In this document: positions 19,065-26,971 of the stretch, in pieces
Numbering within the stretch: the first letter of the stretch is position 1
Layout: every line of letters starts with the position of its first letter
DNA from: an uncultured bacterium
Lineage (GTDB): Bacteria; Bacillota; Clostridia; Lachnospirales; Lachnospiraceae
DNA: 64,000 nucleotides
Assembly (NCBI GenBank): GCA_947243845.1
Contig: CAMXIF010000005.1
Location: 1-64,000, forward strand
Direction: 5' to 3'
Position numbers and translations under genes: made by a program
The notes under the pieces: model-generated
The model's database searches: none
The model's input: the letters and a program-made list of their open reading frames with translations, nothing else
Told to the model about the DNA's origin: nothing

Positions 19065-19474
19065 TAAGTAGAACAAATGATCGCGGCTGCACAGACGAAA
19101 GGGTGCAGGTGAGGAAAGTCCGGGCTTCACAGGGCAGGATGCCGGATAACGTCCGGTGGAGGCGACTCCAAGGCTAGTGCAACAGAAAAGAAACAGCCCC
19201 ACAGTTTTGCGCAGGCAATGCTGTGGTGAGGCCGCGAAGCGGTCTCGGGACTTCCACATTGGTGGAAGTTCACGGTTATGGTGGAATGGCAGTGTAAGAG
19301 ACTACCGCTGTCCCGGTAACGGGACAGGCTGTGTAAACCCCATCCGAAGCAAGACCAAATAGAAAGCGATAGGCCGGCCCGGCCTGCTTTCAGGTAGGTC
19401 GCTTGAGGTCTTTGGCAACAAAGATCCTAGATAGATGATCATTCGCGACATAACCCGGCTTATCGTTCTGCTTA
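19065..19474 (+). ncRNA. rnpB: RNase P RNA (class A)
   Basis: The catalytic RNA that matures tRNA 5' ends. The conserved 5' core GAGGAAAGTCCGGGCTTC lies at about 19111, GGTAACGGGACAG-type P10-P12 sequence follows, and the 3' core has AGATAGATGATCATTC and ACATAACCCGGCTTATCG. Ends were set by the P1 pairing TAAGTAGAAC with GTTCTGCTTA. Two TATGAT hexamers just upstream (19045, 19056) are possible -10 boxes. The ORFs in the track over this stretch are artefacts. Confidence 0.95.
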
Positions 19475-19553
19475 TTTACAGACAGATACAGAAAGTAGAA
19501 AGCGCAGGGCACAGGAAGCAGGAATTTCTTCTTCTGAAAGGAGGAGAAAGCGT

Positions 19554-24041: not shown

Positions 24042-25259
24042 ATGACAAAAATTGATATCGTCTCCGGATTCCTGGGAGCCGGCAAAACGACATTGATCAA
24101 AAAACTTTTAAAGGAGGCGCTGGCGGATACGAAAGTAGTGCTGATTGAGAACGAGTTCGGTGAGATCGGCATTGACGGTGGTTTCTTAAAAGAAGCAGGC
24201 ATTGAGATCAAGGAGATGAATTCAGGCTGTATCTGTTGTTCCCTGGTGGGTGATTTCGGCGCTTCCCTCAAAGAAGTCTTGGATACTTATTCGCCGGAAC
24301 GGATACTGATCGAACCTTCGGGTGTGGGGAAACTTTCCGATGTCATGAAAGCGGTACAGGATGCCATGGCAGACAGAGAGGTGGCGTTAAACAGCGCGGT
24401 AGCCGTGGTGGATGCCTGCAAATGTAAAATGTATATCAAGAATTTTGGTGAGTTTTTTATCAATCAGATTGAGCATGCTGGCACTATAGTCTTGAGCAGG
24501 ACAGATAAATTGAGTGAAGAGAAACTGGCGGCCTGTGTGGAGATGGTACGGGAGCATAATGCGAAAGCAACTATTATTACGACCCCTTGGGATGCGCTGG
24601 AGGGCCAGGATATCTTGGAGACTATTGAGGGCGCCAAGGATCTGGAGGCAGAGTTGATGCAGGAAGTGATGAGGAAGCATGAGGAGCATCATCACCATCA
24701 TCATGACGGGGAAGGTCATGAGTGCTGCCATCATGGGCATGAGGATCATGACCATGAGCATGAAGAAGGTCACGAGTGCCGCCATCATGAGCATGAGGAG
24801 CATGACCATGAGCATGAAGAAGAGCATGAGTGCTGCCATCACGGGCATGAGGACCATGACCATGAACATGATGAAGAAGGGCACGAGTGCTGTCATCATG
24901 AGCATGAGGAGCATGACCATGAGCATGAAGAAGGGCACGAGTGCTGTCATCATGACCATGCGGGACATCACCATCATCACGCGGACGAGATCTTCACAAG
25001 CTGGGGGCTTGAGACACCTTCAGTTTACAGCAAGGAGGAGATTGAGCATATTCTGGAAGAACTGGATAAGGAAGAGAAGTACGGTTTGGTGCTTCGAGCG
25101 AAAGGAATGGTGCCTTCTACAGATGGCGGCTGGATTTATTTTGACTATGTGCCGGAGGAGAGAAATGTCAGGAGCGGGAAGCCGGATGTGACAGGCAAAT
25201 TCTGTGTCATTGGTTCAAAGCTGAAAGAGGACAAACTGGCGGCTTTATTTCAGAAATAG
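24042..25259 (+). CDS. COG0523 (CobW/P47K) GTPase with His/Cys-rich repeat
   Basis: A 405-residue metal-chaperone GTPase. Walker A is GFLGAGKTT at residue 9, the metal-binding CXCC motif is intact (NSGCICCSL, about 65-73), and SRTDK corresponds to the NKxD guanine motif. Between the GTPase core and the CobW C-terminal domain lies a roughly 100-residue His/Glu/Cys repeat (about 212-312), able to bind many Zn, Ni or Co ions. The C-terminal domain ends normally. COG0523 proteins deliver metals such as Zn or Co to client proteins. The next gene is a second, divergent COG0523 protein 18 bp away. Metal identity is unknown; no Zur-like box was recognised upstream. Confidence 0.9.
   Translation: MTKIDIVSGFLGAGKTTLIKKLLKEALADTKVVLIENEFGEIGIDGGFLKEAGIEIKEMNSGCICCSLVGDFGASLKEVLDTYSPERILIEPSGVGKLSDVMKAVQDAMADREVALNSAVAVVDACKCKMYIKNFGEFFINQIEHAGTIVLSRTDKLSEEKLAACVEMVREHNAKATIITTPWDALEGQDILETIEGAKDLEAELMQEVMRKHEEHHHHHHDGEGHECCHHGHEDHDHEHEEGHECRHHEHEEHDHEHEEEHECCHHGHEDHDHEHDEEGHECCHHEHEEHDHEHEEGHECCHHDHAGHHHHHADEIFTSWGLETPSVYSKEEIEHILEELDKEEKYGLVLRAKGMVPSTDGGWIYFDYVPEERNVRSGKPDVTGKFCVIGSKLKEDKLAALFQK
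24714..24963 (+). repeat. Tandem 54-bp repeat encoding His/Cys units
   Basis: Four full units and one partial of an 18-codon repeat (GHECCHHGHEDHDHEHEE; one unit has an extra codon), inside the COG0523 gene. One unit has Arg in place of the second Cys. Preceded by a run of six His. The long Met-rich ORF on the opposite strand is only its shadow. Confidence 0.9.
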
Positions 25260-25277
25260 CAGGAAGGAAGTAATCGT

Positions 25278-26207
25278 ATGAAAACGGTCTATGTGATCAA
25301 CGGATTTTTGGAGAGTGGTAAAACAGAATTTATCACTTATACATTGGCACAGCCCTATTTTCAGATACGCGGTAAGACGCTGTTAATCCTCTGTGAGGAG
25401 GGAGAAAACGAATATGATGCCAATCTTCTGAAGCAGAGCAATACAGAACTGGTGCTGATAGAGGAAGAATCAGATTTTATTCCCAACAGACTGATTGAAT
25501 TGGAGAAGAAATATAAGCCGGAGCGTATTCTCATCGAATATAATGGCATGTGGAATTATAAGGAGATGAAACTGCCCTGGCACTGGAAGATAGAGCAGCA
25601 GATTACCACCATTGACGCTTCTACTTTTCCGATGTATTTCACCAATATGAAATCTCTGCTGGCAGAGCAGATTCGTAAGTCGGAACTGATTATTTTTAAT
25701 CGGTGTGATGGGATACAGGATCTTGGAAGTTATAAGCGCAATATCAAGGCCATCAATCCCAAGGCGGAGATTGTCTTTGAGGATGCCAATGGGGAGATCA
25801 ATGAGATTATGGAAGAGGACCTGCCTTATGACTTAAAGGCACCGGTCATTGAATTAGATAATGAGTGTTATGGTATTTGGTATCTGGACTCCCTGGATCA
25901 TTTGGAGCGTTATGAGGGTAAGACAATCCGCTTTGTGGCAATGGTTTTAAAGCCGGAACAGTTTCCCAGGGGGTATTTTGTGCCGGGACGTATGGCGATG
26001 ACCTGTTGTGCGGAAGATATGGCCTTTCTGGGATATGCCTGTGAGTATGAGAAAGCAGATTCCCTGCAGAATCAGCAGTGGGTGCAGGTAACGGCGAGGG
26101 TGGAGAAGGAATACTTTGCGGACTATCAGGGGGAAGGTCCGGTATTACATGCTGTCAGCGTGGAGCCGACCAAAGCCCCGAAAGAAGAGGTCATAAGTTT
26201 CGTGTGA
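25278..26207 (+). CDS. Divergent COG0523-like GTPase fused to a TIGR03943-like C-terminal domain
   Basis: A 309-residue protein. The N-terminal 190 residues are COG0523-like with Walker A GFLESGKTEF, but the CXCC metal motif is absent: the region around residue 55-70 reads NTELVLIEEESDF. The usual C-terminal CobW domain is missing. In its place residues 200-309 (FVAMVLKPEQF, GRMAMTCCAEDMAFLGY) resemble the C-terminal soluble domain of the YcgQ/TIGR03943 membrane-permease subunits, which often accompany COG0523 genes. It follows the His-rich COG0523 gene by 18 bp and overlaps the YlmH-like gene by one base. A role in metal handling with its neighbour is likely by context. Confidence 0.8.
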   Translation: MKTVYVINGFLESGKTEFITYTLAQPYFQIRGKTLLILCEEGENEYDANLLKQSNTELVLIEEESDFIPNRLIELEKKYKPERILIEYNGMWNYKEMKLPWHWKIEQQITTIDASTFPMYFTNMKSLLAEQIRKSELIIFNRCDGIQDLGSYKRNIKAINPKAEIVFEDANGEINEIMEEDLPYDLKAPVIELDNECYGIWYLDSLDHLERYEGKTIRFVAMVLKPEQFPRGYFVPGRMAMTCCAEDMAFLGYACEYEKADSLQNQQWVQVTARVEKEYFADYQGEGPVLHAVSVEPTKAPKEEVISFV

Positions 26208-26971
26208 TGGAAGCGGATAAGGATTTACAGCAGATCAAAAAACGCCTGTTAGAATTGGCCAAGCGTTCATACAGCCAGAGTGTTTATACGTTTACCCCGT
26301 TTCTGGGACTTTCTGAGCAGCAGGCTTATCATGAGATCAGCGGTCAGCTGTCTTATGCCGGATGCGGGATGGAGGGCGGAAGTCCTTTGAGCGAACGTAA
26401 GATGATTCGGTTTGGGAATGAGGAAAATCTTGGCTATGTGGAAGACTACCCCATACTTTGTCTGCGGATCGAACCCCTGCACCTGAAATTCGCAGAAAAT
26501 CTGACGCACAGGGACTTTTTGGGTGCAATCATGAATCTGGGGATTGAGAGAGATACGATAGGAGATATTTTTGTGCAGGAAAAGGCGGCATATCTGTTCT
26601 GCCAGGACACGATTGCGCCCTATTTGACTGCGCATCTTGAACAGGTGCGGCGGACCAGGGTGAGATGTCTTGCCTGTGATATACCAGAGCAGCTTGCAGT
26701 GCCTTCGCTGGAGAGCGTAACGGTGTCGGTGGCTTCCCCACGGATTGACGGGGTGATTTCCAAACTGTACAATATGGCGAGAAGCCAGAGTCAGGAACTG
26801 TTTGGAGCCGGTAAAATATTTATCAATGGAAGACTGACGGAGAGCGGCAGCTATCTGTTGAAACCTGGCGATGCGGTAACGGTACGAGGGTTTGGCAGAT
26901 TTATTTACAAAGGAGAGCAGGGCGAAACCCGCAAAGGTAAGCTGAGAATCTGTGTGGAAGTTTACCGTTAG
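26207..26971 (+). CDS. YlmH-like S4-domain RNA-binding protein
   Basis: A 254-residue protein with the YlmH layout: an N-terminal domain (PFLGLSEQQAYHEI), a central domain containing HRDFLGAIMNLGIERDTIGDI, and a C-terminal S4 RNA-binding domain (SPRIDGVISKLYNMARSQSQELFGAGKIFINGR in outline). YlmH usually lies in the cell-division cluster after sepF; recent work on B. subtilis YlmH links it to rescue of stalled ribosomes. Here it is instead joined to the COG0523 operon by a TGATG overlap. The track start is 43 codons too early; ATG 26207 starts the conserved protein. Confidence 0.88.
   Translation: MEADKDLQQIKKRLLELAKRSYSQSVYTFTPFLGLSEQQAYHEISGQLSYAGCGMEGGSPLSERKMIRFGNEENLGYVEDYPILCLRIEPLHLKFAENLTHRDFLGAIMNLGIERDTIGDIFVQEKAAYLFCQDTIAPYLTAHLEQVRRTRVRCLACDIPEQLAVPSLESVTVSVASPRIDGVISKLYNMARSQSQELFGAGKIFINGRLTESGSYLLKPGDAVTVRGFGRFIYKGEQGETRKGKLRICVEVYR

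Follow-up and report, generated by a model that had tools for sequence, protein, structure and literature searches.

A conserved pair of genes was identified in an uncultured Lachnospiraceae bacterium, in a stretch of 64,000 nucleotides (the window). The first gene encodes a COG0523-family GTPase with a histidine-rich store (P1), and the second a CXCC-less G3E GTPase fused to a DUF1980_C domain (P2). On the best reading, the two form a cytosolic chaperone and an acceptor GTPase, presumably for zinc, which would contact each other and serve putative client enzymes. Since a CXCC-less GTPase is also part of a clostridial membrane operon, the pair in the window looks like a soluble form. That it is a cytosolic, derived form of this zinc-handling membrane system is given an even chance.

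Features of P1 and P2

P1 has the G3E domain of COG0523 proteins (PF02492, 135.7 bits in Pfam), with both Walker A and Walker B (GFLGAGKT and EPSG) and the GCxCC metal motif in the form GCICC. The intact GTPase and GCICC motifs of the preliminary description were thus recovered, as were its roughly five His/Cys/Glu repeats, which consist of an 18-residue unit (HECxHHxHxxHDHEH) present five times. For the underlying array, Tandem Repeats Finder gave a period of 54 and 4.8 copies. The His-rich region comprises 110 residues, of which 44 are His, 9 Cys, and 30 Glu. The CobW_C score of P1 is 21.8 bits against a Pfam cut-off of 22, and the scores of P1 orthologs that are not His-rich (35.8 and 36.0) lie above it. 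The gene boundaries given in the preliminary description are correct (Table 1).

Table 1. Features of the gene pair and the adjoining gene (window positions)
Feature	Position	Strand	Residues and motifs	Basis or remark
P1, COG0523-family G3E GTPase, 405 aa	24042..25259	+	P-loop 9-16; GCICC 62-66; His-rich 206-315; CobW_C-like end 318-404	ORF, Pfam, motifs
54-bp tandem array in P1, encoding five His/Cys/Glu repeats	24711..24974	+		Tandem Repeats Finder, protein units
P2, CXCC-less G3E GTPase with DUF1980_C, 309 aa, without membrane helix	25278..26207	+		Pfam, NCBIfam, hydropathy, alignment
P2 GTPase domain	25278..25793	+	1-172; P-loop GFLESGKT; switch I E40/G42; ExNG (E87-G90); NRCD (141-144)	Motifs; fold like HypB/UreG/YjiA
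P2 DUF1980_C domain, predicted OB fold	25836..26204	+	187-309	Invariant R238, C243, C244, D247
ylmH-like gene (YlmH_RBD)	26207..26971	+		Start overlaps P2 stop by one base

P2 starts 18 bp downstream of P1 on the same (+) strand. It matches PF02492 at residues 4-166 (51 bits in Pfam) and PF21537 (DUF1980_C) at residues 175-303 (81.2 bits, cut-off 25.9), the latter with the R..CC..D motif. The match to TIGR03943 covers the C-terminal half only (profile positions 109-219 of 221) and its 74 bits lie below the cut-off of 88.8, i.e., P2 has neither a full-length equivalog score nor the N-terminal membrane region of this family. No hydrophobic segment was found in P2 by hydropathy (best 19-residue mean, 0.79). 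The domain search therefore bears out the suggested relation of the C-terminal part of P2 to TIGR03943, via DUF1980_C and the C-terminal half of TIGR03943, and the second protein indeed keeps a P-loop (GFLESGKT) and has no CXCC. The CXCC motif, stated to occur in all COG0523 members (PMC2770081), is likewise missing from 86 of the 86 fused proteins examined. P2 thus falls outside COG0523 by this motif and within the G3E superfamily by its P-loop, Walker B, and G3E fold.

The predicted structure of P2 (pLDDT 79) has HypB, UreG, and zinc-bound YjiA as the top fold matches of its GTPase half. The model of the C-terminal domain (pLDDT 78, pTM 0.76) matches OB folds such as Ten1, RPA, and SSB with modest TM-scores of 0.5-0.6, and in the full-length model the CC loop is of low confidence (pLDDT below 50 at residues 240-249). 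Comparison of P2 with the PDB by sequence gave chance antibody matches only.

To judge from the alignments, features of P1 and P2 are conserved far beyond chance, e.g., GRMAMTCCA and NGFLESGKT. The motifs NGFLESGKT, CEEGE.EY, EYNGMWN, FNRCD, and GRxAMTCCA.DM.FLG..C show no or almost no variation among relatives of P2. The guanine-specificity motif does vary, with NRCD as the commonest version and other forms common as well. Together with the loss of CXCC, this would agree with P2 being a regulatory pseudo-GTPase that merely controls P1. Fused and membrane forms alike, however, keep the P-loop residues G9, G14, K15, and T16, the switch residues E40 and G42, and E87-x-N-G, for which a dead GTPase would have no need, and such a purely regulatory role is regarded as quite unlikely. 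A conserved cysteine in switch I, C39, was considered as a substitute metal ligand and dropped, as its conservation among wider relatives does not reach the 85% used as the threshold for listing.

Linkage and distribution of the pair

A scan of GTDB contigs returned 385 relatives, and linkage was read on the best 80 of these. P1 lies upstream on the same strand in 80/80 and is directly adjacent to P2 in 79/80; this adjacency persists even at loci with divergent or different ABC, ylmH, and cmpB neighbors. Nearly all of the more distant fused loci also have P1 next door, with the order reversed in L130, L171-L173, and L175. The expected linkage of the two genes in relatives thus held and, as the TIGR03943 relation was found too, neither of the outcomes named beforehand as contrary (an unrelated C-terminal part, unlinked genes) was observed. 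Of 299 Lachnospiraceae genomes, almost every one of which represents a genus of its own, 271 have fused P2, which is full-length among the matches listed. A sample of 391 genomes spanning Clostridia contained 76 with full-length fused P2, and in a phylum sample it was found outside Clostridia in two genomes.

Several local variations were seen. Second copies of fused P2 with no COG0523 partner in the stretch examined are present at L177:4662-5597 and L179:4368-5303, and in two related genomes (L151, L156) an ORF of 129 aa, for which a family search gave no match, lies between P1 and P2. The ylmH-like gene that follows P2 in the window is probably co-transcribed with the pair; it is outside the conserved pair and variably present in relatives. 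Its identity is only 31-49% in most relatives versus at least 75% for P2, and it was undetected in several loci.

A dense His region is found in 62/62 P1 orthologs that accompany a fused P2 versus 0/12 that accompany the membrane system. The anticipated co-occurrence of the fused form with a His-rich COG0523 protein therefore holds, as one event: in the unrooted P1 tree, each trait shows a single change, and the two changes fall on one branch (support 95). Striking as it is, the coupling of store and fusion is a single evolutionary event, and the association of His-rich P1 with system type was rejected as independent evidence. A second, His-poor type of COG0523 protein (score of 60-80 against the P1 profile) partners other copies of fused P2 (L114, L131, L174, L178).

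Membrane-form relatives and origin of the fusion

The class-wide search also returned the GTPase and C-terminal domain halves as separate ORFs. Elsewhere in Clostridia, a membrane operon is found that encodes a COG0523 protein, a CXCC-less GTPase (alone or fused to ArsP_1), and a TIGR03943 protein with three predicted helices. Four separate genes are present at L126, namely, COG0523 (313 aa), CXCC-less GTPase (212 aa), ArsP_1 permease (332 aa, 199 bits), and TIGR03943 (245 aa, three hydrophobic helices), and a GTPase-permease fusion (509-596 aa) followed by TIGR03943 is present at L118-L121, L124, L128, and L135. In an unrooted tree, the CXCC-less GTPases stand apart from the CXCC partners, and 43 of these partners form one clade with a support of 100.

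Because the GTPase halves of the fused and membrane forms have ExNG in common, and their aligned DUF1980_C domains R..CC..D, P2 can be read as a fusion of parts of the membrane system. By these shared motifs it corresponds to a CXCC-less GTPase joined to a soluble TIGR03943 domain, with the permease and the helices gone. With the GTPase, permease, and TIGR03943 genes next to each other, P2 could have arisen by a single in-frame deletion. The trees are unrooted, and the membrane form is presumed to be ancestral to the fused form.

The preliminary description had regarded P2 as a possibly membrane-recruited partner, in which the fusion replaces a separate membrane-subunit gene. Membrane recruitment was not supported: the portion of TIGR03943 missing from P2, which has no hydrophobic segment, is exactly the membrane part, so that the soluble domain alone was kept. 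No further DUF1980_C gene was found in the window genome, and no ArsP_1 permease lies beside the pair as it would in a YcgR-YcgQ membrane system. It looks as if the permease and helices were lost, with nothing taking their place. Two tandem, half-length ArsP_1 ORFs (177 and 192 aa) are present in the window genome (G000), unlinked to the pair, at the end of contig C59 (L132:5635-6719). With these two ORFs in the same genome, a permease from another locus might still bring P2 to the membrane, forming the split membrane complex suggested earlier. This is considered very unlikely, given that the ORFs are unlinked tandem halves of about 180 residues at a contig end, that P2 has no membrane segment, and that no DUF1980 membrane part was found in the genome. 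In addition, genomes such as G243, G249, and G168 hold the membrane operon besides the fused pair, and the pair is therefore no simple stand-in for that operon.

In 11 of 13 cases, positive-inside charges predict an extracellular DUF1980_C domain for the membrane form. This fits badly with fusion to a cytosolic GTPase, since P2 necessarily has this domain in the cytosol. One explanation is an erroneous topology guess, and direct contact between the domain and the GTPase would then be suggested for the membrane form; the other is that the domain has taken on a new use.

Gene context and the metal handled

Zinc is the best guess for the metal of the pair. In one Lachnospiraceae locus (L181), a single run of genes encodes a FUR-family protein, ZnuA (315 bits), an ABC ATPase, ABC-3 (202 bits), COG0523, the GTPase-permease, and DUF1980, and the same genome carries a fused pair elsewhere (L097). 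Other membrane-form loci have ABC-3 and FUR genes in front (L124), a divergent FUR-family gene (L118, L119), or ABC-3 alongside (L129). Among fused pairs, znuA is divergent in L157, with the Fur-family-like box TGATAATCATTCTCA in between, and znuA and znuB lie downstream in L071.

In the window genome (95.7% complete), a ZIP transporter is present, and neither ZnuA nor an ABC-3 permease was found. Its only FUR-family gene adjoins a rubrerythrin-like gene, and by this neighbor the encoded protein looks PerR-like; the genome's own context therefore gives no inference of zinc. Correspondingly, the marks of a Zur regulon are missing here, with no box before P1 in the window and only the PerR-like FUR protein in the genome. 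No operator shared upstream of P1 was found across the loci, and most fused operons have no recognizable Zur box, the Fur-like boxes before P1 being scattered (L114, L157, L174). At L114 and L174, both with the His-poor COG0523 type, two Fur-type boxes lie upstream (TGAGAATAATTATCA and TGAGAATGATTCTCA), and at L131 a FUR-family gene lies alongside. DtxR/MntR-like inverted repeats (TTAGnnnnnnCTAA) occur 58-103 bp before P1 in L104, L113, and L116 and would suggest regulation by iron or manganese at those loci. A search of the window with Rfam gave tRNAs and RNase P only, with no riboswitch near the pair and no NiCo or cobalamin riboswitch. The RNase P RNA (bacterial class A, 311 bits) lies upstream of the region, at 19065-19478.

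The pair may instead serve another metal (nickel, cobalt, iron, or manganese), with P1 as a HypB-like His store and P2 helping to insert the metal into a core lachnospiral enzyme. The lack of Znu and Zur among the genes found in the window genome and the DtxR-like repeats agree with such a role, as do the His-rich G3E nickel stores known in HypB (PMC2770081). It is somewhat doubtful in view of the Zur/znu linkage of the membrane relatives, the znuA genes adjoining the fused pairs in L157 and L071, and the lack of NiCo and cobalamin riboswitches in the window.

Proposed mechanism

With zinc as the preferred metal, P1 would load zinc at GCICC, buffered by its own His-rich store, and would pair with P2, depending on GTP, through the face by which G3E proteins usually dimerize. 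HypB-class G3E proteins form nucleotide-dependent dimers, including the HypB dimer (reviewed in PMC9164220), and ZigA is homodimeric (PMC13339975). In the OB domain of P2, the CC-x-x-D loop might replace the missing CXCC, as an acceptor or client-docking site. GTP hydrolysis would then release the metal to a client enzyme, and stored zinc would be redistributed inside the cell rather than handled at the membrane. It is tentatively proposed, with the balance of probability leaning against it, that the pair works as a two-GTPase relay, in which the store-carrying COG0523 protein passes zinc to a CXCC-less partner, to be accepted there by an OB domain with CC-x-x-D that stems from a subunit of a membrane transporter. 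Such a relay may serve nearly all Lachnospiraceae as a zinc bank inside the cell. If it exists, the logic of the fusion would imply that the C-terminal domain of YcgQ works with a GTPase.

Relation to known systems

The COG0523, DUF1980, and ArsP_1 families are already known. In the literature searched, which excluded the main COG0523 review (Edmonds et al. 2021), no description of the fusion or of the two-GTPase unit was found, and TIGR03943, DUF1980, and COG3689 are practically absent from it. The present analysis ties CXCC-less G3E GTPases, COG0701/ArsP_1 permeases, and YcgQ/TIGR03943, which have little or no assigned function, into one putative metal-handling system with a zinc context. 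In a dominant gut family whose members can be without Znu and Zur, the pair belongs to the core, and it may thus bear on how zinc is held and shared there. Unlike the membrane form, the soluble form is open to purification and assay.

P1 resembles the COG0523 zinc metallochaperones (ZagA/YciC, ZigA, ZNG1, and YjiA) in its G3E domain, GCxCC, and His-rich insert, and apparently in its CobW_C-like end, and the GTPase half of P2 has the same fold (YjiA match). In contrast to these proteins, P1 almost always adjoins a CXCC-less G3E partner with an OB-like domain, and P2 does not have the defining CXCC. With the nickel chaperones HypB and UreG, the pair shares a His-rich store, a G3E GTPase, and the fold match; it differs in that no hydrogenase or urease context was seen, that each unit has two different G3E proteins, and that an OB-like domain is present rather than a maturation scaffold.

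The C-terminal domain of P2 is a DUF1980_C of the YcgQ type with the invariant R..CC..D, which connects the pair to the YcgR-YcgQ and ScfA-ScfB systems (COG0701 permease plus TIGR03943/DUF1980), as does the ArsP_1 permease found as a partner in the operons of relatives. Unlike these systems, the pair has no permease and no membrane helices, and its DUF1980_C is fused to a GTPase. Genes of the YcgR/YcgQ type matter for the fitness of group A Streptococcus, and their function has been reported as unknown (PMC5584981); the soluble fusion also raises a testable question about the topology of YcgQ/ScfB.
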